Below, one piece after another: positions 26,262 through 50,917 of a stretch of 64,000 nt of DNA. The notes below the pieces were generated by a model. That model was given only the letters and a program-made list of their open reading frames with translations. It searched no databases and was not told the DNA's origin. Source of the DNA: Streptosporangium sp. NBC_01755 (GTDB taxonomy: Bacteria; Actinomycetota; Actinomycetes; Streptosporangiales; Streptosporangiaceae); contig NZ_CP109131.1 in NCBI RefSeq assembly GCF_035917995.1, positions 3,286,001 to 3,350,000 on the forward strand, in the 5' to 3' direction. Positions within the stretch are counted from its first letter, which is position 1; each line of letters starts with the position of its first letter. The position numbers were made by a program, and so were the translations under genes.

Positions 26262-27026
26262 TGATTGGACCTCGATCCGATCAAGGGCCCGTCTGTTCGT
26301 TGGTAGCGGTGGACGGGCCCGCTTCATGGGGTGGGGAAAGGCGTGGAGGGGTGTGCCGTACCGGCCGGGTGGCCGGTACGGAGGCAGGGTGGGCATCGCC
26401 CGGGGTGGAGCGCAGGTCCTCCTGCCGGTGCGGGGGACGCGGCGGCGCCCTCCGCCGGGCCGGGGCGGTCCGGTACGGGTGCCCCTGGACAGGGGCCGGA
26501 GAGGGCAGCGCACCCGGCGAAGTGGCGACACCGGCACGGCGGCCGGGGCCTGCTCGGGGCGGCGCGGGACGATCACCGGCGGGGCCGTCTCCACCGAGGC
26601 CCGCCCGGCGGAGCGCTGACCGGCCACCGGCGCGACCGTCTCGGCCGAGACCCGCTCGCCGGGCCGCTGTTCGGCCACCGGTGCGGTCGTCTCCACCGGG
26701 ACCTGCCGGGCGGGCCGCCGGGCGAACTGTTGGGCCGGCACCAGCGGGATCATCTCGGCCGGGACCGCGAGGGCGGGCGGCTCGAAGCAGGGCAGTTCAA
26801 AACAAGGCAGCGAGCGGTCCCCGGTCCGGCGAACCCGCAGGCGGGTGTCCATCAGCACGGCGGACGGCTGGGCGTACTCGTGGTCAGCGGGCCGGTCGGG
26901 GCAGCCGTGCGCGTAGGGGGCGTGCCCGCAGGCGGCACAGCCCATCGGCATCGGCGCCGCATCGGCGAAACAGCCGCAACCACCGACCGCCTGCCTGTCG
27001 AGAACGGGAGCACTAAGGTTGCTCAC
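25983..27026 (-). CDS. Cys-motif protein, N-terminal zinc-ribbon-like (3' limit uncertain)
   Basis: The start at 27026 opens with GGCGCFADAAPMPMGCAACG and HAPYAHGCPDRPADHEYAQP. The spacing C-x-C ... C-x2-C ... C and His residues suggest metal binding. A Pro/Arg-rich tail follows that looks unstructured. The same N-terminus occurs at 40077. No stop appears before 25983, so the frame runs into the next gene (25983-26261). Either the native stop was lost or the true end lies near 26340 in another frame. No function is known to me. A divergent GntR gene starts 172 bp away. Confidence 0.5.
   Translation of the reverse strand: MSNLSAPVLDRQAVGGCGCFADAAPMPMGCAACGHAPYAHGCPDRPADHEYAQPSAVLMDTRLRVRRTGDRSLPCFELPCFEPPALAVPAEMIPLVPAQQFARRPARQVPVETTAPVAEQRPGERVSAETVAPVAGQRSAGRASVETAPPVIVPRRPEQAPAAVPVSPLRRVRCPLRPLSRGTRTGPPRPGGGRRRVPRTGRRTCAPPRAMPTLPPYRPPGRYGTPLHAFPHPMKRARPPLPTNRRALDRIEVQSMNDGRSTTPEPTTIPGWRLILSDAGRLWASREQPFSPAAFHAGAERTVDGDSLEALRAETDRQEALAQEANTQQANAQAAAVTETATGQVIS
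26285..26320 (-). ncRNA. Structured leader, copy B
   Basis: Stem GGGCCCGTC / GACGGGCCC around an 18-nt loop, preceded by CATGAAGC and followed by TTGATC on the minus strand. It lies 23 bp before the start at 26261. This is the same leader design as copies at 27052, 40008, 47881 and 50885. Confidence 0.6.
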
Positions 27027-27051
27027 GGGTCAGGAGTCCCTTCCTGATCAA

Positions 27052-27094
27052 GGACCCGTCACGGTGTTCCAGCACCGGGCGGGTCCGCTTTATG
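27052..27094 (-). ncRNA. Structured leader, copy A
   Basis: On the minus strand: CATAAAGC, outer stem GGACCCG / CGGGTCC, inner stem CGGTG / CACCG with loop CTGGAA, then TTGATC. It lies 26 bp upstream of the Cys-motif gene start. The outer stem differs from copies D and E by two compensatory changes. Confidence 0.65.
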
Positions 27095-27198
27095 AGCCTT
27101 GAGGCGGATTCCGAGCCCCCGCAGCTCTTCTCTATATGTGCTCGTCCATGCTCGTACTCGCATGAGTGCCTATGAGCATGACCGTCTACCGTCTCCTC

Positions 27199-27453
27199 AT
27201 GATCGAGTTCGAGCGCGATCGGCCGATATGGATCCAGGTCGCGGAGACCTTCACCGAGAGGATCGAACGCGGCCAGTACCTGCCGCGCCATCTGATCCCC
27301 TCCGAGGTGCAGATGGTGCAGGAGTTCGGCATCGCCCGAGGTACGGCCAGGAAGGTGGTCGCCTACCTCCGGGAACAGGGGGTGGTCTACACCGTCCCGC
27401 AGATCGGATCGTTCGTCAGCCCGGCGAGGACACCCGCTGACGAGAAGGACTGA
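27199..27453 (+). CDS. GntR-family mini-regulator
   Basis: An 84-residue winged-helix protein: FERDRPIWIQVAETFTERIE, VQMVQEFGIARGTARKVVAY, then QGVVYTVPQIGSFV. It has no effector domain and the same size as the GntR protein at 37492. I chose ATG 27199 by homology; in-frame ATGs at 27166 and 27178 are alternatives. Upstream lie CATGCTCG and TATGAGCATG half-sites that may be its operator. It is divergent from the Cys-motif cluster and heads the GntR-XRE-DUF397 module. Confidence 0.8.
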   Translation: MIEFERDRPIWIQVAETFTERIERGQYLPRHLIPSEVQMVQEFGIARGTARKVVAYLREQGVVYTVPQIGSFVSPARTPADEKD

Positions 27454-27467
27454 GTCCACCGTCGCGA

Positions 27468-27632
27468 CTTTCTTGGACAAGAGGAACCGTTGCACGGATC
27501 GGCCTGCAAGTGTCATGGCGCCCTCACCTTGAGTTAACGAACCAGACCGCAGACAACCAACGATGGCTGCGGCACCAGTCGGACACCCTTGCCATATCGT
27601 CACTCTTAGTAGCTGACCGACTCCTTACAGTG
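27468..27632. repeat. Intergenic repeat, copy 2 (matches 15597-15761)
   Basis: Second copy of the roughly 165-bp block described at 15597. It lies between the GntR gene and the XRE/DUF5753 gene and probably carries the XRE promoter. On the minus strand it again encodes a peptide starting MTLA-RS-QRF with GGTGAGG upstream. Confidence 0.7.
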
Positions 27633-27714
27633 TGGCGTGCAACTTACATGATCACAAGTACCTTGTATAAATTTGCTCGGCGCACGATGACGTTGATCAG
27701 GCATGCTTGTCGGC

Positions 27715-28563
27715 ATGGCTTCTGCGAGTCCCACCGTTCGACACCGCCGCCTTGGCCGTGAGCTGCGAAGACTTCGAGAGAAGGCAAATCTCACGCTGGA
27801 AGAGGTGGCCACACCGCTTCGCTGGTCCACGGCCAAGCTAAGCCGCATCGAGAACGCCCGGACCATGCCCAGCGGCACGGACGTTGCCGACCTCTGTGAT
27901 CTGTACGCCGTTGACCCGCCAACGAAGGCCGGGCTGATCCAACTCGGTCAGGATGCCGGTCAACGTGGTTGGTGGACCGCTTACAGCGATGTGTTCGCCG
28001 GCGCCTACGTCGGCCTGGAATCCGAGGCGACGACCATCCGCAGCTGGGAACCGCTGTTGGTACCGGGCCTTCTGCAGAACGAGGACTACGCACGTGAACT
28101 TATCCGCACGTCTCGCCCGGGACTGGCCGCCACAGAGCTGAAGCGGTATGTGGCAGCTCGGATGGCACGCAAAATCAGCCTTCTCAGCTCACAAGCGCCC
28201 GCGCTGCACGTACTCATGGACGAATGCGCTCTGCGCCGCCCTGTCGGCTCGCCCGGCATCATGGCCCACCAACTCGGAGACATCCTTCAGGTCATGGACT
28301 GGCCCAACATCACCGTTCAGGTTCTTCCGCTTCGGATCGGTGCGCACTGTGGCTTGGAGGGCGCTTTCTCCCTACTGGCGTTCGATGCCGAAGATCCAGA
28401 AGTGGGCTACACCGGCTGCCCCGGCGGAGACGTCTATGTAGAGGCGACGGATCAGGTGGAGAACCTTAAACTGACATTCGAACGTCTTGCTGGTGTGTGC
28501 TTGTCCCCCGAGGAGTCTGCGGCGTTCATTGCTGCGGTAAGGAGTGACCATGCCCCCCTCTGA
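27715..28563 (+). CDS. XRE-family regulator with DUF5753 domain
   Basis: A 282-residue protein. The N-terminal helix-turn-helix is LGRELRRLREKANLTLEEVA with STAKLSRIENAR. The C-terminal DUF5753 domain contains LLVPGLLQNEDYARELI and later AFSLLAFDAEDPEVGY. Known: these proteins are hugely expanded in Streptomyces and relatives and pair with an adjacent DUF397 protein; BldB/AbaA-like and WhiJ-like systems are examples. The stop overlaps the DUF397 start by 14 bp, so the two are co-translated. Confidence 0.9.
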   Translation: MASASPTVRHRRLGRELRRLREKANLTLEEVATPLRWSTAKLSRIENARTMPSGTDVADLCDLYAVDPPTKAGLIQLGQDAGQRGWWTAYSDVFAGAYVGLESEATTIRSWEPLLVPGLLQNEDYARELIRTSRPGLAATELKRYVAARMARKISLLSSQAPALHVLMDECALRRPVGSPGIMAHQLGDILQVMDWPNITVQVLPLRIGAHCGLEGAFSLLAFDAEDPEVGYTGCPGGDVYVEATDQVENLKLTFERLAGVCLSPEESAAFIAAVRSDHAPL

Positions 28564-28753
28564 CCTGAATGGCGCCGCATGGCATAAAAGCAGCTACAGC
28601 GGCGGAAGCAGCGACAACTGCGTGGAAGTAGCCACGAACCTGCCCGGCTTCGTCGCCGTACGCGACAGCAAGGACCCGTCCGGCCCGATGCTGACCTTCT
28701 CCCCCACGGCCTGGACCGACTTCTTGACGGGCATCCGCAGCGGAGAAATCTGA
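28550..28753 (+). CDS. DUF397 domain protein
   Basis: A 67-residue protein with the family pattern WHKSSYSGGSSDNCVEVA, VRDSKDPSGPMLTF and a final WTDFLTGIRSGEI. Known: the small partner of XRE/DUF5753 regulators, proposed to modulate their DNA binding. It overlaps the XRE gene end. A GTG at 28544 in the same frame is an alternative start. Confidence 0.9.
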   Translation: MPPSDLNGAAWHKSSYSGGSSDNCVEVATNLPGFVAVRDSKDPSGPMLTFSPTAWTDFLTGIRSGEI

Positions 28754-28766
28754 CCCGACCACGAAC

Positions 28767-28810
28767 GCCGCACGGCCGAAACCAACCGAAAAGCCACCAG
28801 GCCGTGCGGC
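28767..28810. terminator. Hairpin after the XRE-DUF397 pair
   Basis: Perfect 11-bp arms (GCCGCACGGCC / GGCCGTGCGGC) around a 22-nt loop, 14 bp after the DUF397 stop. Probable operon terminator. Confidence 0.6.
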
Positions 28811-28946
28811 AACCTACGCCGGCATCCAAGGAACCTCGCCAGCAAGATTCCGGCATACCAAATACAGGGTATTCAAACAGCCGAAAATCATCATCGACGA
28901 CCCAACCTCGTAGCCCTTCATTCGGCTCTCTGTTGCGCCACATACA

Positions 28947-30941: not shown

Positions 30942-31026
30942 CCGGGCCGGCGGGTGGCTCGATTGACGGACAGGCGTCCAGGGGAACCGGCACGGTCCGT
31001 GTGCGCCTGCCGATAATGCCATCCGC

Positions 31027-31761
31027 TCAGCCGAGGTGGGCGGCGGCTCCTGCGGTGAGGTTGCCGTCGGTCATGGTCAGCACGCTGTCCACCATGGTGA
31101 GCGTGGCCAGGTCGTGGGTGACCATGACGGTGGCCACGCCGTTCTGCTTGGTCAGGCCGGCCAGCAGAGAGACGATCTGCTCGCCGCGCCGGTGGTCGAG
31201 GGCACTGGTGGGCTCGTCGACCAGTAGTACCTCGGGTTCGTTCATCAGCGCGCGGGCGATGTTCGCCCGCTGCCGCTCGCCGCCGGAGAGCTGGTGCGGC
31301 CTCTTGTCCTGCTTGCCCGCCAGGTCTACGGCTGTCAGCAGTTCGCGCGCCCGCTTGGTGGCCTGCCGTGTCGAGCGGGCGACCAGGTCGGCCATGACCA
31401 GGAGCTGGTCCAGGACGGTGAGCGAGGCCAGCAGGTTGGGCTGCTGGAAAACGATGCCGATGTGGTCGCGCCGGATGCGAGTCCGGTCGGCCGGGCTCGC
31501 GCCGGACACGTCGTACCCGGCCACGGTCACGGTGCCGGACTCGGGGGTGAGGAGGGTGGCGGCGACGGGAACGACGGTGGTGGCCGCCGACAGGACGAAC
31601 GGGACGGTGCCCTCGGCCAGCGAGCCGAGCCCGGCGCTGAGGTCGATCTGGACGCCTTCCAGACTCCAGGAACGGGTGTTTCCGGCACATCGTGAAAACG
31701 GGCGGCGCGGGCGCCTTCTTTTGGTCGGCTGGAAATCAACCTTTTGAAGGATGCATCCCAT
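31027..31761 (-). pseudogene. Dead MacB/LolD-type ABC ATPase (Walker A lost)
   Basis: The C-terminal two thirds are a normal ATPase: Q-loop IGIVFQQPNLLASLTVLDQL, signature LSGGERQRANIARALM, Walker B VLLVDEPTSALD. Where Walker A should be, the sequence reads EGTVPFVLSAATTVVPVAAT with no GxxGxGK. The first 30 residues are also unlike the family. No permease gene follows, although such ATPases are normally paired with one; the adjacent sequence is the GHKL gene. I infer a decayed transporter operon whose permease was lost. Confidence 0.7.
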
Positions 31762-31790
31762 CGAACCCCCTCACCTACTCTGGGGGAGAA

Positions 31791-37482: not shown

Positions 37483-37491
37483 ACCCGCCGG

Positions 37492-40007: not shown

Positions 40008-40051
40008 CATAAAACGAGCCCGCCCGGCGCTGCACACGACCGGACGAGCTC
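40008..40051 (+). ncRNA. Structured leader, copy C
   Basis: Starts with CATAAAAC, then GAGC...GCTC as outer stem with an inner CGG/CCG pairing, then TTGACC. It lies 25 bp before the GTG at 40077 and before the same gene type as copy A. It is the most diverged of the five copies. Confidence 0.55.
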
Positions 40052-40076
40052 TTGACCAGGAAGCGAGTCCTGATCC

Positions 40077-40740
40077 GTGAACGATCCTAGTGTCGTCCTC
40101 GACCGGCCAACAGCGGCAGATGCCTGCGGCTGCTTCGCCGACGCCCCGCCCCTGCCGATGGGATGCGCCGCCTGCGGGCACGCACCCTACGCCCACGGCT
40201 GCCCCGGCCAGAGCGCCGATCACGAGTACGCGCAGCCGTCCGGTGCCCTGATGGCCGAGCGCCTGGAGGTACGCCGCCAGCTTGGTCTCGGCCAGGCCCT
40301 GCCGACCTTCGAGCCCGCCCGCGAGGTCACCGCCCAGCCAACGCTCGTACCCGCGCCCCGCCAGGCCGACCCCGAGGCGACCGTCGCGCACCCGGCCCAC
40401 CGGACGCACCGACACCCGACGCCCGGCGACGCCCGGCGCCCGCCCGCGCCGGCCGGTCGAGACGCGGGCAGACCGCGCGGTCCGCCTGGCGCTCGCCCGC
40501 GACCCCCTCTCCCGGCGACGAGCCCGCATCGCGGCCCGCGCACACGAGCACGGCGCCCCGCCCCCGAGCGTGAGCCGGGAGCCGAACGCCCGGCCGCCGC
40601 TCACCCTGCTGCCGGATCCTCCCGAGCACCAGCACCAGCCCCTCCGGCCGGGGCCCGCCGTCGCCCTCGGCCGGAGCCACTCGCCGGATGCTTCCCCGCC
40701 CCGACGGCACGCCCCGTACCGGCGGGAGGCGGCGGTATGA
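40077..40740 (+). CDS. Cys-motif protein, second copy (probable frameshift)
   Basis: From GTG 40077 the product opens with DACGCFADAPPLPMGCAACG and HAPYAHGCPGQSADHEYAQP, nearly the same as the gene at 27026. The frame that best looks coding later (ETRADRAVRLALARDP, RRRARIAARAHEHGAPPP) is one base different, and it ends at a TGA (40738-40740) overlapping the next gene's ATG. This implies a frameshift somewhere in 40330-40450. The N-terminal motif suggests metal binding; the tail is Pro/Arg-rich. Function unknown. Confidence 0.5.
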
Positions 40741-41167
40741 GTAGGGCTCCAGAGGGCGGCACCCCCACGAGCAGGCGCGGCGGCAGTCCAGCTTCCCAGG
40801 CGTCCGCCGCCGCGCCGTCGACCACCACACCGTCTCCCGCCCGGCTTCGCGCCGAAGAGCTGGCCGCCGAACTGGACCGCGCCCACGGCATCAAGGCCGA
40901 CGTCACGAACTGCGCTCCGGCAACGCCATCATCTCCGTCTACTACGGGCTGCTCGCCTACAGCGACGGCGAGAACTTCTGGTGGACCAGCCCCGAGCTCG
41001 ACTCCGGCCACCACCTGCTCAGCGCCGCCGTAGACCCGGCCGCAGCCGCCGAGCGGCTCGCCGAGCACTACGAGATCCTGCGCGCCCGCCCCCTCACCAC
41101 CGTGCTGGGCAGCGAGCTGCCGCTGCTGGCCGACGTGATCCTGGCCGAGCATGTCGTCCCGCGCTGA
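40737..41167 (+). pseudogene. Conserved small protein, frameshifted near 40906
   Basis: The ATG at 40737 overlaps the preceding stop. The frame gives ARLRAEELAAELDRAHGIKA and then breaks. One base is missing between about 40906 and 40907; the adjacent frame continues as ELRSGNAIISVYYGLLAYSD and ends with LPLLADVILAEHVVPR at 41167. Restoring one base yields a normal protein of about 143 residues. It could be a true mutation or a sequence error. Confidence 0.6.
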
Positions 41168-41809: not shown

Positions 41810-41955
41810 GCCGGCGCGGCGGCGCGGCGACCAGCCTCCCGTGCCGTCGCGCCCCCAACTCCCCTCGGGCGGCGGTGCACCATCAGGGGCCGCCCGCGGG
41901 GGTAGACGCGACCGTACGACCTCCTGCTTGGAGGGGCGTGAACCTCGGTCGAAAT

Positions 41956-41993
41956 GATGGTGCCCCGCCAGTTCTTTCCAGCGGGGCACCATC
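41956..41993. terminator. Terminator hairpin before hemC
   Basis: Perfect 13-bp arms (GATGGTGCCCCGC / GCGGGGCACCATC) around a 12-nt loop containing TTCTTT. It separates the small-gene operon from hemC. Confidence 0.7.
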
Positions 41994-42073
41994 CGATGGC
42001 AGTCAGCGTGCACCTCCCCCCACAGATAGTCACACTCTGCAATCAGAGTCTCACTAACAGGAAGAGCTTCGCC

Positions 42074-43057
42074 GTGACCGATGTGTTCCTCAACCGATTC
42101 GCCGAAACCCCGCTCCGGATCGGCACCCGCACCTCCACCCTGGCCAAGATTCAGGCCAGTCGTGTCGCCGAGATGATCACCAAGCTCGCGCCCGAGATCC
42201 CGATCGAGATCGTGCCCACGCAGGTAACCGCTGACCTCTGGCCCGGTGACCTGGCCGAGATCGGCGGCAAGGGAGCCTTCAGCAAGGAGATCGACAGCGC
42301 CTTGACCGGCGGCCGGATCGATATCGCCGTCCACTGCGTCAAAGACGTCCCCGGCGATGTGCCCCTGGCCGAGGGCACCGCGTTCGGCGCCTACCTGGAA
42401 CGGGACGACGTCCACGACGTCGTCGTCACCCGCGACGGCGTCGCCCTGGCCGACCTGCCCGCCGGGTCACTGATCGGCACCAGCTCCGTGCGGCGTCGCG
42501 CACAGCTCAGCATCCACCGGCCCGACCTGCGCACCGAGCGCATCCGCGGCAACGTCGACACCCGGTTGAACAAACTCGACGAGGATGGCAAGTACGCCGC
42601 GCTGATCCTGGCCCGCACCAGCCTGAGCCGCCTCGGCCTGCTGGAGCGCCACCACGAGATCCTCCCCCTGGAGTTCCACACCGCGAGCGAAGGCATGTCC
42701 ATGGTGCCGCCCGTAGGTGCGGGCGTCATCGGTATCCAGGCTCGTCAGTCCGACGGGCCGGTCATGCGGCTGCTGGACGAGCTCAACCACGTGCCCACCG
42801 CCCGGCACGTCCTCGCTGAGCGCACCATGCTGCACATGCTGCGTGGCCACTGCAACTCCCCGATCGCCGGGCACGCCTGCACTACCGCAGACGGGAAGAT
42901 GGGCTTGTTCGGCATGGTGTTCAATCGCGACGGCTCCCAGTTCGTCCGCTCCCACGCCTGGGGCGGCCACGAGGATCCGGCCACGCTCGGAGCGCGCGTC
43001 GCCGCTGATCTGCTGCACCAGGGTGCCCGTAACCTGATCACCGCCACCCGGAAATGA
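42074..43057 (+). CDS. hemC: Hydroxymethylbilane synthase (porphobilinogen deaminase), orphan copy
   Basis: A 327-residue protein from GTG 42074, with AGGAAGAG upstream. It shows the family opening LRIGTRTSTLAKIQASRVAE, the active-site segment DIAVHCVKDVPGDVP (usually HS-x-KD), the Arg cluster IGTSSVRRRAQL and RGNVDTRLNKLD, and the cofactor-binding Cys in RGHCNSPIAGHA. Known reaction: joins four porphobilinogen molecules into hydroxymethylbilane for haem, sirohaem and cobalamin. No other tetrapyrrole gene is near; it is flanked by small unknown genes and an integrase fragment, so it is probably an accessory, acquired copy. Confidence 0.88.
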   Translation: MTDVFLNRFAETPLRIGTRTSTLAKIQASRVAEMITKLAPEIPIEIVPTQVTADLWPGDLAEIGGKGAFSKEIDSALTGGRIDIAVHCVKDVPGDVPLAEGTAFGAYLERDDVHDVVVTRDGVALADLPAGSLIGTSSVRRRAQLSIHRPDLRTERIRGNVDTRLNKLDEDGKYAALILARTSLSRLGLLERHHEILPLEFHTASEGMSMVPPVGAGVIGIQARQSDGPVMRLLDELNHVPTARHVLAERTMLHMLRGHCNSPIAGHACTTADGKMGLFGMVFNRDGSQFVRSHAWGGHEDPATLGARVAADLLHQGARNLITATRK

Positions 43058-43487
43058 CCACCGGGCCAAAGGCGGCGGCCTGGTCTTCCGCAAGCCGAAG
43101 GGGAAGTCCAAGCGGATGGTACCCCTGCCCCCCGAACTGATCCCGATTCTCAAGACACACCGCACCCGCCAGAAGGCGGAGCGCCTCGCGGCCGGCGCCA
43201 CTTGGGAGGATCACGATCTCGTGTTCACCCAGCCGACCGGCAGGCCGATCGACAAGCACGACGACTGGGAGGAGTGGAAGGAGCTGCTGATGGCCGCCGA
43301 CGTCCGGGAGACCCGGGTGCACGACGCCCGGCACACGGCCGCCACCTTGCTGATCGAGCAGGGCGTGCACGTCCGGACGGTGCAGGAGATCCTCGGGCAC
43401 TCCGATATCAGGGGCACGCAGCGTTACCCGCACATCGCCTCACCGATGGCCGAGGACGGGATGCGGCGCATGGGGGCGGCCCTGTGA
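43058..43487 (+). pseudogene. C-terminal fragment of a tyrosine integrase
   Basis: The frame reads KGGGLVFRKPKGKSKRMVPL, then RVHDARHTAATLLIEQGVHV and QEILGHSDIRGTQRYPHIAS. These are the H-x-x-R, LGH and Tyr parts of the phage/AICE integrase catalytic domain. The N-terminal two thirds, including the first catalytic Arg, are missing because the sequence joins directly to hemC. It lies about 100 bp from a tRNA attachment site, where such genes normally sit. Confidence 0.82.
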
Positions 43488-44187: not shown

Positions 44188-44190
44188 GAC

Positions 44191-44251: not shown

Positions 44252-44347
44252 ACCTCTCCAGCGACAGGTCCGCCCTACCTGGACAACCCTCACCGCGCGC
44301 CCGGCGTCTACTCTCCGCCCCCGACCCCCCGCCAGGAGTAACCAGCC

Positions 44348-45007
44348 ATGCGGAGAAAATCCCGCCGTACCCTCGTGTCAGCCGCAGTCGCTGGCGTGCT
44401 CGTCATTACCGCCTACGGCTGCCTCACCCGAGAGCAAGACGACTCCCGGGCCGTGACGGCTATCCCAGCGGAGCCCGCCCCTTCGGAAACCACCACGGCC
44501 GCTCTACTCGCCGCCGGGTGCTCTGACCCCGGCCTGCTTACATTCCTCGACGGGGTCCAGGAGCACGCTGCCACGGGGACGCTGGATCCGGACGTGGCTG
44601 CGCTCGACTGGCACACCGGCCTGCTGCAGGCCGCCAGCGGCACCTCGCCAGAGGTGCGCGAGCGGGTCGACGCGGCGACCCGCACTGTGGAGGCATACCT
44701 GGCGACGGAAACCGGCACGGCGACAGCGCGGGCCCACGGCCGGGCGATCGCACGCGCAGCGGTGAAGGTGGTCGAGGCGTGCGGCCTCGAGGCCGACTAC
44801 GACATCACGGTGCCGAAGAAGGCCAAGCCGCGGCGGTCCCCGACACCGGAGGCGGAGAGGAGTTCGGAGCGTCCGGCGGCGGATCCCCGGTTCGGGAGTT
44901 GCGCGGCGGCGAACCGGGCCGGCCACGGGCCGTACTATCGCGGCGCGGACGTGGAGTACGGGTGGTACGAGGACAGAGACGGTGACGGCACGGTGTGTGA
45001 GCGGTAG
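44348..45007 (+). CDS. Excalibur-domain lipoprotein
   Basis: A 219-residue secreted protein. The signal peptide (TLVSAAVAGVLVITAYGC) carries a lipobox Cys. The middle is helical. The C-terminus is an Excalibur calcium-binding motif: FGSCAAANRAGHGPYYRG and DRDGDGTVCER, with the typical D-x-D-x-D-G-x2-C-E ending. Known family: extracellular Ca-binding modules in surface proteins. Its place inside a mobile element is unusual and may relate to cell-surface contact or entry exclusion; that is speculation. Confidence 0.82.
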   Translation: MRRKSRRTLVSAAVAGVLVITAYGCLTREQDDSRAVTAIPAEPAPSETTTAALLAAGCSDPGLLTFLDGVQEHAATGTLDPDVAALDWHTGLLQAASGTSPEVRERVDAATRTVEAYLATETGTATARAHGRAIARAAVKVVEACGLEADYDITVPKKAKPRRSPTPEAERSSERPAADPRFGSCAAANRAGHGPYYRGADVEYGWYEDRDGDGTVCER

Positions 45008-45020
45008 CCAGACACGCGAG

Positions 45021-45052
45021 AGAGGCCCGACCTTGCCCAGGGTCGAGGCTCT
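45021..45052. terminator. Imperfect hairpin between convergent genes
   Basis: AGAGGCCCGACC and GGTCGAGGCTCT can pair with two mismatches around an 8-nt loop. It lies between the Excalibur gene and the convergent GntR gene. Confidence 0.4.
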
Positions 45053-45065
45053 TCGCTGTCCGGAG

Positions 45066-45461
45066 CTACTCGGGGATGCGGATCTCTGAGGAGTCCGCGG
45101 GGAGGACCTCGACCTGGTCGCCGCGCTCGACCATGAGGACGGGTACGAGCTCGTCGAGGGCGAGCTCTTCGCGTTCGGCCTCGGTGGGCATGCGGGCGGT
45201 GATGCGCATGCCGGGCTCCGGAGCGACCACAGTCACTTCGGTCGCGCGGACGAAGCTTCCGCGGTTGCGCACGGTGTGGATCAGGTTCAAGTCACGCAGG
45301 TGGGCCATGGCCTGCAACACGGTGTTGCGCGCCACCCCGAACTCTTGCTCCAGGTGCGTGACGGTAGGCAGGCGCCGGCGGTACTGGCCGGACTCGATGC
45401 GCACCCGGATTGCCTGCGCGATCTGCCGATACGCGGGCAGCTCCGACTCGTAATCGATCAT
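45066..45461 (-). CDS. GntR-family regulator, paralogue of 43756
   Basis: A 131-residue protein with winged helix ELPAYRQIAQAIRVRIESGQ, THLEQEFGVARNTVLQAMAH, then LIHTVRNRGSFV. The tail (MRITARMPTEAEREELALDE, VPVLMVERGDQVEVLPADSS) matches the tail of the GntR protein at 43756. It is divergent from two small genes at 45593. Probably one of two layered repressors of the element. Confidence 0.84.
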   Translation of the reverse strand: MIDYESELPAYRQIAQAIRVRIESGQYRRRLPTVTHLEQEFGVARNTVLQAMAHLRDLNLIHTVRNRGSFVRATEVTVVAPEPGMRITARMPTEAEREELALDELVPVLMVERGDQVEVLPADSSEIRIPE

Positions 45462-45592
45462 GGGTTGACGGTAAGTGCAGGCATCGTTAGGTCCTGAGTG
45501 CGCTCAGAGCACCTGATGATGCCTAAGTCATCTCATGACGACTGCTAAGCCATGACCTGTCCTACCCATCGGTAGCGGCGTAGCGTCGCCCC

Positions 45593-45808
45593 ATGACTCA
45601 CAGTGACCTGGAGAAGTTCGCGAAGAACTGGCCCGACTGGGTGATCTGGCAAGGCATCAGGTCGGACGCCGGGCCGGGCGACTACTACGCCAACCGGCGC
45701 CGATGGTCGGCCGATCCGCCGGCGGAGGCGTCGCTGACCGTCGTCGGCACGGACCTCGACGAGCTGGAGGTACAGCTCAAGGAGCAGCAGCGGATCGAGG
45801 AGCGGTGA
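45593..45808 (+). CDS. Small protein of unknown function
   Basis: A 71-residue protein with DLEKFAKNWPDWVIWQGIRS and a C-terminal helix (TDLDELEVQLKEQQRIEER). The length and pattern resemble small accessory proteins of actinomycete plasmids. The stop overlaps the next start (GTGA). The 131-bp gap upstream is a divergent promoter with the GntR gene. Confidence 0.7.
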   Translation: MTHSDLEKFAKNWPDWVIWQGIRSDAGPGDYYANRRRWSADPPAEASLTVVGTDLDELEVQLKEQQRIEER

Positions 45809-45981
45809 GCGATCCGATCCCCGGCTGGACCGACCGGGAGGGGCGTCTCTGGTTGGACACCGGTTACACCAAGGACGGCGAGGTGGTGATCGAGCTCCTC
45901 AACGGTGCGGCCCGGGGGACGCTCGGCTGGGTGACCGCTCAGTTCGGCCCGATGGAGAGGCTGGGGGGTGTGACGCGCTGA
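45805..45981 (+). CDS. Small protein of unknown function
   Basis: A 58-residue protein from GTG 45805: DPIPGWTDREGRLWLDTGYT and ELLNGAARGTLGWVTAQFGP. It is coupled to the preceding gene by a 4-bp overlap and followed by a strong terminator. Confidence 0.6.
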   Translation: MSDPIPGWTDREGRLWLDTGYTKDGEVVIELLNGAARGTLGWVTAQFGPMERLGGVTR

Positions 45982-45986
45982 GATGC

Positions 45987-46029
45987 GACGGAGGCCCCCG
46001 CCCTGGCGAGTAGGTCGGGGGCCTCCGTC
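45987..46029. terminator. Strong bidirectional terminator
   Basis: Perfect 14-bp arms (GACGGAGGCCCCCG / CGGGGGCCTCCGTC) around a 15-nt loop, between the plus-strand small genes and the convergent gene at 46044. Confidence 0.8.
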
Positions 46030-46043
46030 ATAACAGGGGGCGG

Positions 46044-46247
46044 TTACACGCCTTCGAGGCGGGCGACGACGCGAGCGAGCAGGTCGCGGATCTCGATCTG
46101 GCCGGCCTTGAGTTCGGCGACGTCGTCCCGCATGACGGCAGTGGTCTTCTCGATGTTGCCGACCGACCGCTCGATGACGCCGAGCCGGTCCTTGATCTCG
46201 GCGATGTCGGTCTCGACGGTGGAGACGCGCTCCTCGATGTACGGCAT
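46044..46247 (-). CDS. Small coiled-coil protein
   Basis: A 67-residue protein from ATG 46247. Almost the whole length is heptad-like coiled coil (VETDIAEIKDRLGVIERSVG, DVAELKAGQIEIRDLLARVV). It may oligomerise or bind another coiled-coil partner. Function unknown. Confidence 0.65.
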   Translation of the reverse strand: MPYIEERVSTVETDIAEIKDRLGVIERSVGNIEKTTAVMRDDVAELKAGQIEIRDLLARVVARLEGV

Positions 46248-46377
46248 GGGCTCAGGATAGGACGATCCCGACGAACGCGGGGTTGAACGGTGCCGCCGTG
46301 GGGCGAGCCGCTTGGCCGGTATCGGCCGTTCCCTATGGGGGCGTTGCAATCGGCCATCGCCCGGTCACGATGACGGT

Positions 46378-46482
46378 GTGACCATCCATGCCGATCCTGA
46401 CCTGCAACACCTCTCCGACCTCCTGGACTTTCTCCCAGGCCCCGACGACCGCGAACCAACGATCACAGGGGGACGTTCATGA
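46378..46482 (+). CDS. 34-residue ORF coupled to the next gene
   Basis: GTG 46378 opens a frame whose product contains DLQHLSDLLDFLPGPDDREP and ends in a TGA overlapping the ATG of 46479 (ATGA). The composition is reasonable for a protein and the overlap suggests translational coupling. No Shine-Dalgarno is evident. Confidence 0.4.
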   Translation: MTIHADPDLQHLSDLLDFLPGPDDREPTITGGRS

Positions 46483-46745
46483 GTGAGAACTACACGTCGA
46501 AAGATCTCGCTGACTGGGAACGATCAGTCAACGTCCTGAACCCCGACCCGCGCCCCGACCCCGCAGACCTGCACGAGGCCCAAGAGGCGACCGCGAACAT
46601 GTGCTCGGCGTGGGGCGGCTGGATGGACATGCCGGAGGCGATCAACAACATCGTCCAGCGCGCCATCGAAGCCGGGTATCTCCAGGCGCTTTCCGATGTG
46701 CGTGACGGCAAAATCGATGGACTCGGGCCGGTGGAGGACGACTGA
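46479..46745 (+). CDS. Small acidic protein of unknown function
   Basis: An 88-residue protein with GGGGGACG upstream as ribosome binding site. It is helical and acidic (DLADWERSVNVLNPDPRPDP, MPEAINNIVQRAIEAGYLQA). It converges on the replication-type gene at 46786. Function unknown. Confidence 0.7.
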   Translation: MSENYTSKDLADWERSVNVLNPDPRPDPADLHEAQEATANMCSAWGGWMDMPEAINNIVQRAIEAGYLQALSDVRDGKIDGLGPVEDD

Positions 46746-46785
46746 CACATTCCCTCGCTGACAGCGGACGGCCCCAGCCGGACCA

Positions 46786-47784
46786 TTACCGATCGCGAGC
46801 CAGTTCGGCAGCCAGGATGATCACCTCGTCTCGGGGTGCGGTCTCGCCGAGCTTCTCGCGAGCGGCGATCAGGTGGTCGGCGAAGTCGCCTCGACTGTTG
46901 AGGTAGTCGCGTGCAGCTTGGGCGGCGGGCGATGACTCCTCGGGGGCCTGCCGGGGTCTCAGGATCCGGGCGGGCCCCTTCTCGCCCTTGCGGACCCGCG
47001 ATCCCTGGAGCGCCTCTCGGACGGCGGCGCGGGCTGCTGCGGCTTCCTCGGGCGTCACCGACGGCTCGCCGGGGTCCGGGGCCTGCTCGACGACGGGCGG
47101 CGGCTGGGCCGGGCGGGCGGCGTAGGCGGCGCGGCGAGCGGCTGCGGCGCGAACGTCGGCCAGGTAGCCCGGAAGGTCATTGTTCTTGGCCATGGCCCGG
47201 AAGTACGGGGTTGGCTTCTCGATTTTGACCTTGCTCGTTTTGTGAACTTCCTTGATCACTTCTCTCATCTCGTCCTCGGTGACCCCGAGGTGGCTCAGGG
47301 CGTCCATGACGATGCGCTCGTGGCCAGAGAGAGATGAGGGGTCTTGAGGGGACTGAGGGGAAGGCATCCGGGTTTCCCGGACCCTGGGAGGGCAATTCCC
47401 GGACCCTGGGCCAGCGGAATCCGGACCCTGGGAATCGTCCAGCGTCTGGGTTTCCCGGATGCTGGGGGGTGGCTCAGCATCCGGGGTTTCCGGACCCTGG
47501 GCAGCCGTGAGCGGAGGGATCCGGAAGACGGCGTGCTGATGCATCTGGCCGCGCTTCACCCGCTCCAGGGCGCCCTTGTCGATGAGGCCCGCGATGATCG
47601 CCGCGCGCTCGGTGCGCCCCGTGCGCATGCGGCGAACAAGCGTCGGGTTGCTCTCGACGCCCTTGAGGCACAGACGAGTCTCGTCTCGCGCGTCCTCGGC
47701 GATGGCGATCAGCGCCCAGCGCTCGCGGGGTGTGAGGGTCTCGGGTGCATGGTCGAGGACTTCGACCATCAAACGGACGCCCAT
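46786..47784 (-). CDS. Replication-initiator-like helix-turn-helix protein
   Basis: A 332-residue protein from ATG 47784. The N-terminal 100 residues form a winged-helix domain of the type seen in plasmid and phage replication proteins (LTPRERWALIAIAEDARDET, PTLVRRMRTGRTERAAIIAG, LIDKGALERVKRGQMHQHAV). The middle is low-complexity and encoded by iteron-like repeats (47373-47502). A further part contains HERIVMDALSHLGVTEDEMR. An origin inside the rep gene is a known layout for actinomycete replicons. I infer that this is the element's replication initiator. It is preceded by a 20-codon coupled ORF and by leader copy D. Confidence 0.6.
   Translation of the reverse strand: MGVRLMVEVLDHAPETLTPRERWALIAIAEDARDETRLCLKGVESNPTLVRRMRTGRTERAAIIAGLIDKGALERVKRGQMHQHAVFRIPPLTAAQGPETPDAEPPPSIRETQTLDDSQGPDSAGPGSGNCPPRVRETRMPSPQSPQDPSSLSGHERIVMDALSHLGVTEDEMREVIKEVHKTSKVKIEKPTPYFRAMAKNNDLPGYLADVRAAAARRAAYAARPAQPPPVVEQAPDPGEPSVTPEEAAAARAAVREALQGSRVRKGEKGPARILRPRQAPEESSPAAQAARDYLNSRGDFADHLIAAREKLGETAPRDEVIILAAELARDR
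47373..47502. repeat. Iteron-like array inside the replication gene
   Basis: Five copies of a 15-bp unit close to TTCCCGGACCCTGGG begin at about 47373, 47395, 47417, 47451 and 47487. The first three are exactly 22 bp apart, two helical turns, placing them on the same DNA face. Direct repeats with helical phasing inside a rep-type gene are the hallmark of an iteron origin. Confidence 0.65.
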
Positions 47785-47846
47785 CAGACTCCTGCGCTCA
47801 GGCGCGCGAATATGCACGTCTGAGCGCACGGCGATATCGTGACCAC
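47784..47846 (-). CDS. 20-residue leader ORF before the replication gene
   Basis: GTG 47846 follows an excellent ribosome binding site (AGGAGGAG, 4 bases away). It encodes a 20-residue peptide with two cysteines (SPCAQTCIFARLSAGV at its end). The stop TGA shares its A with the ATG of the replication gene at 47784. That gene lacks its own clear Shine-Dalgarno, so its translation probably depends on this leader, as in other plasmids where a coupled leader limits Rep synthesis. Confidence 0.6.
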   Translation of the reverse strand: MVTISPCAQTCIFARLSAGV

Positions 47847-47880
47847 GGGTCTCCTCCTGCTGATCCCAGGTGGGGCTCAA

Positions 47881-47922
47881 GGGCCTGTTCGGTGTTGACG
47901 CACCGGCCAGGCCCGCCTTATG
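47881..47922 (-). ncRNA. Structured leader, copy D
   Basis: On the minus strand: CATAAGGC, outer stem GGGCCTG / CAGGCCC, inner stem CGGTG / CACCG with loop CGTCAA, then TTGAGC. Both stems and the loop are identical to copy E at 50885. It lies upstream of the 20-codon leader ORF. Confidence 0.7.
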
Positions 47923-47930
47923 TAATTTGA

Positions 47931-48308
47931 TCAATCGGCCAACGAGGGGCGCTGGCTCGCCTGCTCGATACGGTCGAAGATGTCGGCATCCGTCTCCCGC
48001 TGCCACGCCGGCAGGTCATCCCAGTCGGCCACGTACGCCGGCTTCGGGGCGGGGATGTGCTTGAAGATCTGGCCGATCCAGCAGATCGCGATGAACCGGC
48101 CGCGCTGCTCCCGGGTCAGCTTCGCCGTCTGGCGGGCGGTCACCGCGATGAACGCGCTCACCTGCTCCTCAACCGCCGCGGCGCATGAGCGCTCCCAGTC
48201 AGGCGTCTCCTCCCACGGCGTGACGTAGCCGGGCTTCGGCTCGCCAGGGAAGTGCTTCTTCACTCCGTCGATCCACGCTTCGCGGAAAGTACGGCCAGGT
48301 TCCTGCAC
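47931..48308 (-). CDS. Conserved small protein with internal repeat
   Basis: A 125-residue protein. Two similar motifs occur: KKHFPGEPKPGYVTPWEETPDWER and, 50 residues later, KHIPAPKPAYVADWDDLPAWQRE. The segment between them is helical (AAAVEEQVSAFIAVTARQTA, KLTREQRGRFIAICWI). The pattern is familiar from hypothetical proteins beside XRE regulators in Streptomyces and relatives. The XRE gene stops 10 bp upstream, so the two are probably one operon. Confidence 0.72.
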   Translation of the reverse strand: MQEPGRTFREAWIDGVKKHFPGEPKPGYVTPWEETPDWERSCAAAVEEQVSAFIAVTARQTAKLTREQRGRFIAICWIGQIFKHIPAPKPAYVADWDDLPAWQRETDADIFDRIEQASQRPSLAD

Positions 48309-48318
48309 GGTGGCTCCT

Positions 48319-49611
48319 TCAGGTTCCGCTGACCGTGGCCAGCTCGGCGATGTCGTTGTTCAAACTGCGTACCTGGTTGTCCGTCACATCGGCCAGGTGC
48401 GATTGCAAGCCGCGCAGCTTCTGGCCGATGACACCCGATCCAGTGCGGCGTGCGAGCTCGAGCGCGGCTCGGCCGTGTTCGAGCGTCTTGTCGATCTCGC
48501 CTCGCTGCACGCCGAGCGCGGCCAGGTCGACGAGGACGCCGGCGCGGCGGCGGGCGGACAGGTTGTGAGTAAGGGCGTCGACGAGGACAACTTCGGCGAG
48601 GTCGGGCCGTCGAAGCATCGTGTAGCAGGCGCCACGCTCTTCGTGGAGACGGCTGCCGTCGAAGCGCAGCCAACCGCCGTTGTGGATCTGACCGGTCAGA
48701 TCGCGGACATGTTCAGCCGCATCAAGGGCGCGCTGGCAACCGTCGAAATCGCCGAGTCCTGCCAAGGCCTCGGCGCGGACCACATCGACCCAATGGCGGG
48801 TGGAAAGGCCGCTGTCGCCGCGGCGAGACAGGTTGGTGGCGAGGTCGAGCATCGGGACGGCCTTGCCGTACTCGCGTTCGTAGACACCGATGAAGGCATG
48901 GCGAGTCATCGCGCACGCCCACAGGTCGTAGGCGCCCGCTTCTCTGCTGGCGGACGCGGCGAGGCTGTAGCAGTGAGCGGCGTCGGTGTACTGGTTGGCA
49001 TCGAAATGGATCTCGCCAGCGAGTTGAAACAGGTCGCCGGCGAGCGCGCACAGACGCCGGTGGGTGGCCTCGGTGGCGGAACGCTGGAGGCTCTCGACGA
49101 GCGCGGCGAGGTGGTCCTGTACGAGCGGGTAGACCTTGCTCTTGCTACTGGCGAGCATGAACACCTGCCACAGGTGACTGTTCAGCATTTCGTACTGGGT
49201 GGCCGTTTCGGCGTCAGGTCTGCCCGTGCGGGCTGCGATCCGGTCGAGGTCGAGTGCCTGCTCTGCCTGGGGGGTGGCGATGACAGCACCGGCCATGGTG
49301 AAGATTCTGAGTAGCTCGCGGCGGTTCATGTCGTCATCGGTCCACTCCTGCTGGGGTACGGGTTGCGGCTTCGTGGCCTGCTGCTGGATCAGCAGGGCGA
49401 AGCGGGCCTTGACGTGGTCTGGTGCCTGCCAGAGGTGGACGTCAAGGATCTGCTGTTGCTCCGGCTTTTGCTGCATCGCCGGGCACTCTTCCCATTTCGC
49501 GATGGTGCGCGCGGAGACCCCCAGTCGGGCAGCGAACCCCTCCTGGGAGTAGTGGTAGGCCTGGCGGAGGGTCTTGGCCAGGGCGCCGGTCCACGTTTCT
49601 ACAACTTCCAC
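48319..49611 (-). CDS. XRE-type regulator with TPR-like region
   Basis: A 430-residue protein. The helix-turn-helix is KTLRQAYHYSQEGFAARLGV with SARTIAKWEE. A linker with DDMNRRELLRIFTMAGAVIA is typical of this actinobacterial family. Residues 150-400 are helical repeats (GEIHFDANQYTDAAHCYSLA, HLGARRR-like HNLSARRRAGVLVDLAALGV). A near-palindrome GTCCCCTTAAAGGGAC lies upstream (49729-49744) and may be its operator. It probably controls this part of the element. Confidence 0.82.
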   Translation of the reverse strand: MEVVETWTGALAKTLRQAYHYSQEGFAARLGVSARTIAKWEECPAMQQKPEQQQILDVHLWQAPDHVKARFALLIQQQATKPQPVPQQEWTDDDMNRRELLRIFTMAGAVIATPQAEQALDLDRIAARTGRPDAETATQYEMLNSHLWQVFMLASSKSKVYPLVQDHLAALVESLQRSATEATHRRLCALAGDLFQLAGEIHFDANQYTDAAHCYSLAASASREAGAYDLWACAMTRHAFIGVYEREYGKAVPMLDLATNLSRRGDSGLSTRHWVDVVRAEALAGLGDFDGCQRALDAAEHVRDLTGQIHNGGWLRFDGSRLHEERGACYTMLRRPDLAEVVLVDALTHNLSARRRAGVLVDLAALGVQRGEIDKTLEHGRAALELARRTGSGVIGQKLRGLQSHLADVTDNQVRSLNNDIAELATVSGT

Positions 49612-49770
49612 GGCGATCTCCTTACTGAGATCCAGTCTGCCGGGGTTCTCGGCTCGCGCTAGTGGAGATTCAGTGCTGGTTCAGCGCTGGTGTGGTGTCC
49701 GTTCATGGCTACTCCGGGTGGTGTCGCGGTCCCCTTAAAGGGACAGGAAATGCCGCGCGACCTCGGGAGT

Positions 49771-50058
49771 TCAGGTATGAGTCGGTCCCGTCTCGGCCTC
49801 GATGTGTCCGGTGTGTTGCCGCGCCCTTTTGCCTCCCGGTGGCTGTGCCTTGATTCCGTTCTCTCGAGCGATGCGCCGGATGTAGGAGTCGGTGAACGGC
49901 GAATGCTCAGCGACGTCGGTGGGCCGCTCTCCTGCGCGCAGGGCAGCCAGGGCGGCGGCCACCACCTCTTGCCTCGCGTGTTCGTGGGCCTGCTCCGTCT
50001 GGCGGTATCGGGTGGTAGTCGCGTCGAGCAGCGCCAGGGGGCTCATTTCCTCGGTCAT
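49771..50058 (-). CDS. Small helix-turn-helix protein
   Basis: A 95-residue protein. The C-terminal half holds a resolvase-like helix-turn-helix (AALRAGERPTDVAEHSPFTD, SYIRRIARENGIKAQPPGGK). The N-terminal half is a helix rich in Gln, Glu and Ala. It is divergent from the gene at 50266 with a 207-bp gap. Probably a local regulator. Confidence 0.7.
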   Translation of the reverse strand: MTEEMSPLALLDATTTRYRQTEQAHEHARQEVVAAALAALRAGERPTDVAEHSPFTDSYIRRIARENGIKAQPPGGKRARQHTGHIEAETGPTHT

Positions 50059-50265
50059 GAGAACAGACTACCGGAACACAGTTGCGGAACCTACACCTGT
50101 GCGCTAACGTCATGAGCGCAACAGAGTTCCGGAAGGGAAGTCCGGACACAAGTTTCGGTCAAGAAGATGTTGGTGGCCAAAAGCCTTCAGGTCACCACTC
50201 GCGCGGCCCCCCGGGCCGCCTGACCAGCTCGACCCCGGAAACCAACCGCAACAAGGAGAAGAACC

Positions 50266-50877
50266 ATGCAGCACAACACGACGTCCGCCAGCGCCGCCGA
50301 GTTCCCCATCGTCGTCCCGAACGACCCGCACCGCCGCTCGGTGCGTAGCGAGGTCCACCTCCAGGGGAATTCCATCGTGGTTCGCCAGATCGGCTGCGCC
50401 CCGGCCGGGCACATGCTCACCCTGCAGTGGGCCGAGGAGCTGCGCGACGCCCTCGACGCGGCCATCCAGGCGACCCGCGCCGCCGGGAAGACGGTGACCG
50501 CCCCCGTCGCCGACCAGCATGAGCCCATCAAGCAGCGCATCTACATCAGCGAGCAGCCGAACACCGGACCCGCCTCGATCTGCATCGTCGAGCACGGCGA
50601 CCTGCACTTCACCCCCACGCGCGCCGAGGTCATCCGCTTGGACGCCGACCTCACGCCCAGCGCCGTCCACCAGGCCGTCACCGACCACGAGGCCAAGCGT
50701 GCCGTCCTGCACGCCCACGACCTCGACTTCGTCCCGAAGATCCCCCGGGAGTACCTGGCGTTCGAGCTGGCCCAGGCCGAGGAGAAGGTCAAGCACTGCG
50801 CGACCCCCGAGAACGTCGCCCTTCTGGCCGCGATCCGTGACGACGCCGCCCGGCGCGGCCTGGTCGCCGCCTCCTAA
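50266..50877 (+). CDS. Conserved protein of unknown function
   Basis: A 203-residue protein with AAGGAGAAG upstream as ribosome binding site. It includes SVRSEVHLQGNSIVVRQIGC, HMLTLQWAEELRDALDAAIQ and a C-terminal helical part (REYLAFELAQAEEKVKHCAT). A hairpin (GCGGCCC / GGGCCGC) lies about 60 bp before the start. It is the first gene of the long plus-strand operon. No function recognised. Confidence 0.65.
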   Translation: MQHNTTSASAAEFPIVVPNDPHRRSVRSEVHLQGNSIVVRQIGCAPAGHMLTLQWAEELRDALDAAIQATRAAGKTVTAPVADQHEPIKQRIYISEQPNTGPASICIVEHGDLHFTPTRAEVIRLDADLTPSAVHQAVTDHEAKRAVLHAHDLDFVPKIPREYLAFELAQAEEKVKHCATPENVALLAAIRDDAARRGLVAAS

Positions 50878-50884
50878 ACGAAGT

Positions 50885-50917
50885 GGGCCTGCCGGTGCGT
50901 CAACACCGAACAGGCCC
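50885..50917 (+). ncRNA. Structured leader, copy E
   Basis: Outer stem GGGCCTG / CAGGCCC, inner stem CGGTG / CACCG, loop CGTCAA, identical to copy D in both stems and the loop. It lies 35 bp upstream of the ATG at 50953. No T-tract follows, so simple termination is unlikely. Confidence 0.7.

Follow-up and report, generated by a model that had tools for sequence, protein, structure and literature searches.

Covarying two-hairpin elements at mobile-gene starts in Actinomycetota as probable cis-encoded antisense RNAs

Five copies (A to E) of a two-hairpin element lie in the window, the whole 64,000-nucleotide stretch of Streptosporangium sp. NBC_01755 DNA analysed here. Judged by sequence and covariation, they are members of a large covarying family without an Rfam match, and each copy is probably a cis-encoded antisense small RNA that represses translation of the mobile-element gene it crosses. 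The evidence consists of sequence, conservation, covariation, strand asymmetry, a -10 box and position, from which we infer transcription, the RNA ends, duplex formation and repression.

The five copies and their family

An earlier note had described five stem-loop leaders with a common order of parts, and all five were found in the window sequence where it placed them and in that order (Table 1). In their five-row gene-strand alignment (A2), 86.7% of the stem cells are paired, compared with at most 46.4% with slid partners. The covariation claimed for them was also seen, as 97.1% of the outer stem (seven pairs) is paired and changes on both sides occur in 3 of 12 pairs. The inner stem is the weak point on the gene strand: 72% of it is paired, and the gene-strand fold of copy B (26285) lacks it. 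The copies do lie upstream of gene starts, but the distance of 23-120 bp given in the note is wrong: from the TTGANC box to the start codon we measured 17 nt (B), 19 nt (A and C), 28 nt (D) and 29 nt (E, which carries TGTGAT in place of the box).

Table 1. Features at the five copies; antisense RNA ends are predicted, bit scores are those of R3, the antisense model, and -10 boxes are read from the sequence
Feature	Coordinates	Strand	Remarks
Putative antisense RNA A	27027..27094	+	90.1 bits over 27012-27094 (+); two-hairpin fold; order: GGGUC start, hairpin with Shine-Dalgarno complement, AA, terminator-like hairpin, tail GCUUUAUG
Candidate -10 box A, TAAGGT	27014..27019	+	within codons of the minus-strand gene
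Gene under A	25983..27026	-	GTG start at 27026; 347 aa; Cys-rich N-terminus
Putative antisense RNA B	26262..26328	+	70.2 bits over 26247-26328 (+)
Candidate -10 box B, TACCAT	26249..26254	+	
Frame under B	25983..26261	-	ATG at 26261; 92 aa
Putative antisense RNA C	40008..40076	-	80.0 bits over 40008-40091 (-)
Candidate -10 box C, TAGGAT	40084..40089	-	
Gene under C	40077..41033	+	GTG; 318 aa; Cys-rich start resembling the gene under A (by eye)
Putative antisense RNA D	47847..47922	+	long-linker class; 43.5 bits over 47832-47922 (+)
Candidate -10 box D, TATCGT	47835..47840	+	one base outside the usual register
Leader under D	47784..47846	-	20 codons; GTG start; stop overlaps next start as TGATG
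Protein after leader D	46786..47784	-	332 aa; weak phrog_270 match
Putative antisense RNA E	50877..50952	-	long-linker class; 33.8 bits over 50877-50967 (-)
Candidate -10 box E, TAGCCT	50960..50965	-	
Gene under E	50953..51216	+	ATG; 87 aa

The frame under copy B is in frame with that under copy A and shares its stop. Pfam and NCBIfam searches of the genes under copies A and E returned no match at E 0.01. A replication-like gene does lie near copy D, as the note had it, but the copy first meets a short leader overlapping that gene, whose match to phrog_270 (replication initiation protein) is weak (E 2.6e-5, scanned as 46786-47811).

With a model built from the five copies (R1), the genome of the same organism (8.15 Mb) yielded 16 additional places at E <= 0.003, and full-length models found 29 matches there, the five window copies included; with so many matches in one genome the family is therefore not a product of chance, all E-values for family matches being given by model calibration alone. 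Of 246 genomes sampled from the class Actinomycetes, 62 also have matches, as do five genomes from outside that class. One of these outside matches, in genome G477, looks unsound (no start codon, 20 bits with R3). The proposed tie to mobile DNA was borne out, in that copies lie in islands, integrative elements and phages and 32 of the 44 viral contigs searched with model R2 (out of 59) contain a match; the carriers belong mainly to the class Actinomycetes, with a few genomes elsewhere in the phylum. Many of the matches listed by a degenerate DNA pattern scan of genome contigs came from unrelated phyla and look like chance, and R2 matched 15 of 56 named loci at E <= 0.001, weakly in three cases. 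By blastn, the integrative element had only short matches among plasmids, in three Streptomyces records, and the one useful hit of single elements among named phages and plasmids was to Nonomuraea gerenzanensis, whose entry there has no gene annotation. As the note had suspected, the window has no match in Rfam 15 at the gathering cut-off, and a scan of 10 other loci at E <= 1 returned only M23, outside the element and under its cut-off.

Position at gene starts

The positioning of the element at gene starts holds across the family. An ATG or GTG frame of at least 40 codons begins 17-22 nt downstream in 75 of 114 core matches, compared with 3-26 core matches in each of the other six-base bins outside 23-34 nt. 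In a count from which identical-core duplicates and six loci (L130, L171, L201, L206, L207 and L230) had been removed beforehand, 97 cores have an assigned start, and the distance is 17-22 nt in 75 and 24-35 nt in 22, which places the element opposite the translation start of its target, as required of a cis-encoded antisense RNA.

Elements without a long frame often have a short leader instead. Eight of the 14 core matches lacking a 40-codon frame were examined for leaders (L001, which is copy D, L032, L042, L044, L210, the first match of L234, L239 and L243), the other six being L051, L060, L074, L082 and the second matches of L216 and L234, and L020 (47-codon frame), L286, L309, L317 and L326 were added. 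In 12 of these 13 elements, L309 and L317 sharing one leader and so not being independent, a frame of at least 60 codons starts -1 to +7 from the stop of a leader of 13-29 codons, which thus adjoins the real gene. The sole failure was L020. The genes beneath the elements, which fall into 66 similarity clusters among 130, include integrases and genes for replication, conjugation, HNH, HATPase and DUF6907 proteins.

Strand, candidate promoter and tail

The earlier note read the element as a leader in the direction of the gene, a reading that is not borne out: wobble asymmetry, fold energy, a -10 box and a T-rich tail all favor the opposite strand. The non-Watson-Crick stem cells on the gene strand comprise 172 A.C, 24 G.U and 77 others, the strand, pairing and box counts given here being counts of sequences and not of independent events. 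Without the most biased pair the A.C and G.U counts are 97 and 24, and in the outer stem alone they are 23 and 6. Each gene-strand A.C cell is a G.U cell when read on the opposite strand, and the excess is seen even though the search models behind these copies were built on the gene strand. The antisense fold energy is lower in 110 of 115 elements, with a mean difference (antisense minus gene strand) of -8.4 kcal/mol compared with -3.3 kcal/mol after shuffling (one shuffle each), and the hairpin at the Shine-Dalgarno (SD) region folds at -10.1 kcal/mol on the antisense strand versus -7.0 kcal/mol in the mRNA (antisense lower in 100 of 115). Six of the 75 short-linker rows were excluded from the alignments, and the remaining 69 were reduced by similarity to 61, of which 60 were used (L261 left out). 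The antisense alignment A6 has 93.4% of its cells paired and a covariation of 0.430 (slid controls at most 0.087), versus 86.7% and 0.337 for the gene-strand alignment A3. The fold energies and A6 thus show the stable antisense-strand hairpins that a cis-encoded antisense RNA requires. Model bit scores fail to tell the strands apart: in the own genome R3 scores above the gene-strand model R2 in 10 of 29 matches and below in 19, while among 40 loci outside the training set it is higher in 23, lower in 16 and equal in 1 (mean +0.77 bits).

Opposite positions +13 to +8 of the coding sequence, 95 of 115 elements carry a candidate -10 box, TANNNT, when a shift of one base is allowed, compared with 0-3 elements in each of 16 upstream windows; in elements found without use of the coding sequence it is exact in 61 of 97 and within one base in 72 of 97. 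No -35 element is recognisable, the best match to TTGACA averaging 2.49 of 6 at spacings of 16-19 versus 2.56, 2.30 and 2.37 at control spacings, and promoter and terminator scans at copies A and C called none. The observation in the note that no T-tract follows is true for the gene strand as read, but the opposite strand carries a T-rich tail in all five copies (A GCTTTATG, B GCTTCATG, C GTTTTATG, D GCCTTATG and E ACTTCGTT). At the predicted antisense 3' end a long GC-rich hairpin is followed by this imperfect U-tail, with 3.58 T in eight bases versus 1.94 in the next eight. Conservation upstream of the element is low (at most 0.17 bits per position).

Other candidates were rejected. A promoter upstream of the flank is not indicated by TANNNT, present within 35 upstream bases in 27 of 97 elements versus 22 in shuffles; pairing of the coding-sequence box with the loops is absent among the 40 highest column pairs; a short upstream frame from the TTG of TTGATC is in frame with a downstream TAG in one linker class only (by eye); and a plain intrinsic terminator, with a hairpin and T-tract alone, is contradicted by the second covarying hairpin, the -10 box and the fixed start codon.

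It is unlikely that the mRNA itself folds into the two hairpins and shows its SD sequence in a loop under the control of a protein or ligand. In favor of such a leader are the element's exact distance from the start codon, the position of the SD in a covarying hairpin's loop, the slight edge in own-genome bit scores and a likeness to the SAS/ESAS of cluster K phages, but the A.C excess in its stems and its weaker fold speak against it, and it leaves unexplained both the A-rich flank and the conserved A+8, T+12 and A+13 within different genes. An RNA starting from the same -10 box could instead be a leader or attenuator of the divergent gene, with the long hairpin deciding whether RNA polymerase reads on; this we consider improbable. 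A divergent regulator faces copies A and C, and a heuristic gene caller placed the next gene clearly on the opposite strand in 50 of 112 elements, that is, 50 of the 86 with a clear neighbor, so the RNA could also be its leader. Against this, the neighbor lies on the same strand in 36 elements and is not clear in 26, copies D and E abut same-strand genes, and the first hairpin extends over the other gene's SD region. By eye, the divergent next gene is often GntR or XRE. Antisense repression and a role as divergent-gene leader can coexist. That the elements act as DNA, as dimer operators for element regulators or as recombination sites, is very improbable, for while they are palindromic, multicopy, in mobile DNA and at several loci next to GntR genes (copy A; others by eye), their stems covary widely, two distinct hairpins keep a fixed order, the -10 box is on one strand, and the mismatch strand asymmetry already weakens this reading.

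Proposed mechanism and known systems

We propose that an antisense promoter, its -10 box lying within codons 3-5 of the target and no -35 being recognisable, would start an RNA at GGGUC or its equivalent, across from the base that immediately precedes the start codon. Running from there to the end of the tail, the RNA would be 67-76 nt long in the window; the loop region of its first hairpin would bear the complement of the SD sequence, and its 3' end would consist of a long hairpin resembling a terminator, followed by an imperfect U-tail. Pairing with the mRNA of the crossed gene would block ribosome binding, either directly or via the short leader peptide adjoining the gene, and mobile-element genes would be held low. 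The G.U wobbles of the RNA correspond to A.C mismatches in the mRNA, and therefore the regulator would be stably folded and the target more open. It is about as likely as not that the family is a single portable antisense lock, spread over Actinomycetota and their phages and recruited repeatedly by unrelated mobile genes. In that case paired stem drift would make each lock fit mainly its own gene, the regulator would stay folded and the target open through the G.U/A.C asymmetry, and a chromosome could contain dozens of locks, so that mobile elements might cross-talk.

Genes for integrases, endonucleases, HATPases, replication and conjugation all appear to be served by the same RNA architecture, which may be a portable off-switch. 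The hairpin family flags mobile genes that have no recognised protein family, and its related yet distinct antisense pairs are material for specificity studies. The antisense reading gives directly testable predictions on transcripts, target sites and silent mutations.

Antisense control is familiar from single plasmids and transposons. CopA of IncFII, Inc RNA of ColIb-P9, ctRNA_pGA1 and ctRNA_p42d are counter-transcribed RNAs of plasmid replication genes, and like them the element, in mobile DNA, would give a short antisense RNA with hairpins and a putative terminator that spans the start of translation of either a gene or a leader peptide coupled to it. To the best of our knowledge, each known counter-transcribed RNA belongs to one replicon type, whereas here one architecture without an Rfam match extends over 66 gene similarity clusters, with 29 matches in a genome. 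RNA-OUT of IS10 and art200 RNA of IS200 are antisense RNAs lying across a mobile gene's ribosome-binding site, which the hairpin family likewise covers; these, as far as we know, are single element families in other hosts, and the Rfam scans reported here gave no match. The cis-antisense RNAs seen by RNA-seq in Streptomyces, some at phage integration sites, are likewise actinobacterial, but are described as lacking general conservation, and in what that report says of them no comparable two-hairpin family is described (PMC3765725). The SAS/ESAS of cluster K mycobacteriophages and cluster EF Microbacterium phages, as far as these reports describe them, combine an SD-containing symmetric box with an upstream inverted repeat before different phage genes (PMC3203893; PMC7302621), and have a fixed 13-base sequence and 17-bp inverted repeats with putative promoters (PMC11373665). 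The hairpin family differs from those of cluster K in sequence, matching neither the 13-base GGGATAGGAGCCC nor the 17-bp repeats, and R2 found no match over 31 kb of phage Pixie (best E 2.8), but both present a repeated SD-containing box with an inverted repeat before varied genes (PMC3203893; PMC7302621).

A structured element at gene starts

All five copies of a stem-loop that the earlier note read on the gene strand as a leader were found in the window, and their alignment confirmed the order proposed for that strand: an A-rich box, an outer stem, an inner stem and a TTGANC-like box. The covariation claimed for the stems was borne out, within five rows only, by changes on both sides in 3 of 12 pairs, and 86.7% of cells were paired as compared with at most 46.4% when partners were slid. 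Built from these copies, a covariance model limited to the 48-base core (R1) found all five and 16 further places in the same genome (E <= 0.003), and matched 15 of 16 genomes of the genus (E <= 0.01) and 55 of 120 genomes sampled within the family (40 of 68 genera; E <= 1e-5), own genome counted in both. Four tandem pairs of the A/B type, with copies ~600-770 bp apart, occur in the Streptosporangium genome (G000). On one short contig (L328), two equal-scoring matches lie 12.7 kb apart, perhaps in a repeated or circular element.

Beyond the core, the element includes another hairpin, also conserved, that surrounds the Shine-Dalgarno (SD) sequence, and a start codon in a fixed position. The earlier claim that the motif is tied to gene starts is upheld: in 75 of 114 distinct core matches with sufficient sequence, a frame of 40 or more codons opens with ATG or GTG 17-22 nt past the core, the next two bins (23-34 nt, a long-linker class) hold 15 and 30, and the remaining six-base bins hold 3-26 each (mean 11). 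Starts assigned in 97 distinct cores, a count that leaves out six set-aside loci and 14 frameless matches, fall at 17-22 nt in 75 and at 24-35 nt in 22. In a MAFFT sequence alignment of 60 elements (A3), 15 of 20 pairs show both-side changes, with 155 such cells versus 48 in shuffles, and RNAalifold, unaided, recovers 13 of those pairs and no others. When 115 distinct elements were fitted to the full-length gene-strand model (R2), both-side-change cells numbered 348 versus 97 in shuffles; in this model-fitted alignment, corrected mutual information ranks nine of the proposed pairs above every other pair of columns.

Copies of the element and associated features (gene-strand coordinates for copies)
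Feature	Sequence	Position	Strand
Copy A	window	27052-27094	-
Copy B	window	26285-26320	-
Copy B start codon	window	26261	-
Copy C	window	40008-40051	+
Copy D	window	47881-47922	-
Copy E	window	50885-50917	+
Cys-rich family frame begun under copy A	window	25983-27026	-
Second Cys-rich family frame	window	40077-41033	
Possible island edge	window	41954-43487	
Integrative-element gene set	window	45066-58524	
Tandem pair	G000	3312247/3313012	
Tandem pair	G000	3725517/3726259	
Tandem pair	G000	3748664/3749267	
Tandem pair	G000	3840023/3840665	
Geodermatophilaceae MAG copy	L130	149-238	
Geodermatophilaceae MAG copy	L171	6312-6401	
Equal-scoring matches	L328	2001-2081, 14708-14788	

Sequence evidence for a proposed transcript of the opposite strand

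Of 273 non-Watson-Crick stem cells on the gene strand of the 115 elements, 172 are A.C and 24 G.U, and the inner stem accounts for 56 of the remaining 77; the A.C cells are G.U wobbles on the opposite strand. By stem, A.C outnumbers G.U by 23:6 (outer), 25:6 (inner) and 124:12 (SD hairpin), and overall by 97:24 once the most biased pair is removed. Fold energy is lower for the antisense strand in 110 of 115 elements (mean -40.0 versus -31.5 kcal/mol), the corresponding difference in shuffled sequences being -3.3 kcal/mol. Paired cells and covariation score are 93.4% and 0.430 in a fresh opposite-strand alignment (A6), and 86.7% and 0.337 in A3. Bit scores of R2 and the antisense model (R3) do not separate the strands, the antisense model scoring higher at 10 and lower at 19 of 29 own-genome elements, and higher at 23 and lower at 16 of 40 loci outside the training set.

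Putative transcription signals also point to the opposite strand, where the A-rich box reads as a tail rich in T (3.58 T per 8 bases versus 1.94 in the following eight). Across different proteins, the sense coding sequence keeps A at +8, T at +12 and A at +13; on the opposite strand these spell TANNNT, the usual actinobacterial -10 box. TANNNT lies within one base of register in 95 of 115 elements, versus 0-3 in each of 16 upstream windows; among 97 elements found with the core model, which holds no coding sequence, it is exact in 61 and within one base in 72. Seven bases separate it from GGGUC, the predicted start, which is a normal distance for a transcript start. No -35 box was found upstream of the antisense -10 box in the 115 elements scanned. 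Across the 35 bases upstream of the element, conservation stays at or below 0.17 bits per position.

We favor a cis-antisense small RNA, with a two-hairpin fold predicted for most of the 29 own-genome RNAs, that would lie across both the ribosome-binding site and the 5' leader in the mRNA beneath it. Its first hairpin carries an SD complement, CUCC or CCUC, in 80 of 115 elements, and pairing at the SD region would likely block initiation; we infer that the target is repressed. The SD-region hairpin is predicted at -10.1 kcal/mol in the RNA versus -7.0 in the mRNA, so the target should be translatable when the antisense RNA is absent, and this wobble asymmetry would aid the control. Computed duplex energies for the 29 RNAs average -166 kcal/mol for cognate and -120 for the best non-cognate target, and some near-identical RNA/target pairs should, on this model, cross-react. 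Where a divergent gene exists, the RNA may double as its leader: a heuristic gene caller placed divergent neighbors at 50, same-strand neighbors at 36 and no clear assignment at 26 of 112 elements.

Genes beneath the element and its distribution

The 130 frames at the conserved start, some short ones possibly spurious, group by similarity into 66 clusters (blastp E 1e-4). Pfam matches among 80 scanned were DUF6907 (7), HATPase_c_2 (6), Resolvase (2), NUMOD4 (2) and HNH_3 (2), with single matches including endonuclease VII, phage integrase, TraG/TraD-type, IS4/5-type transposase and HTH_17; further matches from PHROGs include replication initiation (2). At loci chosen by eye, anti-sigma-like HATPase_c_2 genes follow the copies of L288, L308, L310, L318 and L319, and that of L044 with a leader in between, an arrangement like that of whiJ/abaA-type clusters. 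The largest cluster (45 of 130, single linkage) includes a family, seen twice in the window, that is rich in Cys, carries a PMGCAACGHAPYAHGCP-like motif and matches neither Pfam nor NCBIfam. The long frame begun under copy A contains copy B, whose start codon is in frame with the same stop, so two proteins, one long and one short, may come from one frame; paired frames at L033/L045 and L015/L007 likewise end at the same base. Two copies in Geodermatophilaceae MAGs (L130, L171; R2 44 bits) precede only short, non-coding-looking frames and are perhaps decayed or trans-acting.

Of 246 genomes from 104 genera sampled within the class, R2 (E <= 1e-5) matched 62, in 26 genera; of 198 sampled within the phylum it matched 9, five of them outside the class, of which four look sound. 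Viral contigs gave 59 pattern matches, in part matched by R1; R2 matched 32 of 44 of these contigs (E <= 0.001), several near-identical. On the viral contig of L247 there are, in addition, genes for a major head protein and a tape-measure/endolysin-like protein, which places the element in at least one real phage or prophage. In the window, GntR, replication-like, HU-like, FtsK/SpoIIIE and NUDIX protein genes form an integrative-element set (45066-58524) of the kind found in pSAM2-like elements; at 41954-43487, a possible island edge, a porphobilinogen deaminase gene adjoins a 123-aa integrase C-terminal fragment.

Comparison with known systems

As the earlier note supposed, no Rfam family matched the element, Rfam 15 giving none in the window or the other loci scanned. 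No description of the two-hairpin family was found among the open-licence papers searched, and an earlier one may exist elsewhere. SAS/ESAS of cluster K phages have by description a similar layout, but their sequence is fixed, and R2 had no match in the cluster K phage Pixie.

Thirteen elements were chosen for having no long frame at the start codon (one has 47 codons); they include eight of the 14 frameless matches, and in 12 of the 13 a frame of at least 60 codons begins -1 to +7 bases from the short-frame stop. Leaders have 13-29 codons, L309 and L317 sharing one. The 20-codon leader of copy D overlaps the next gene as TGATG, and the protein encoded there weakly matches phage replication initiation. 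IncFII and IncI plasmids have leader-coupled replication genes under antisense control, an arrangement that copy D resembles.
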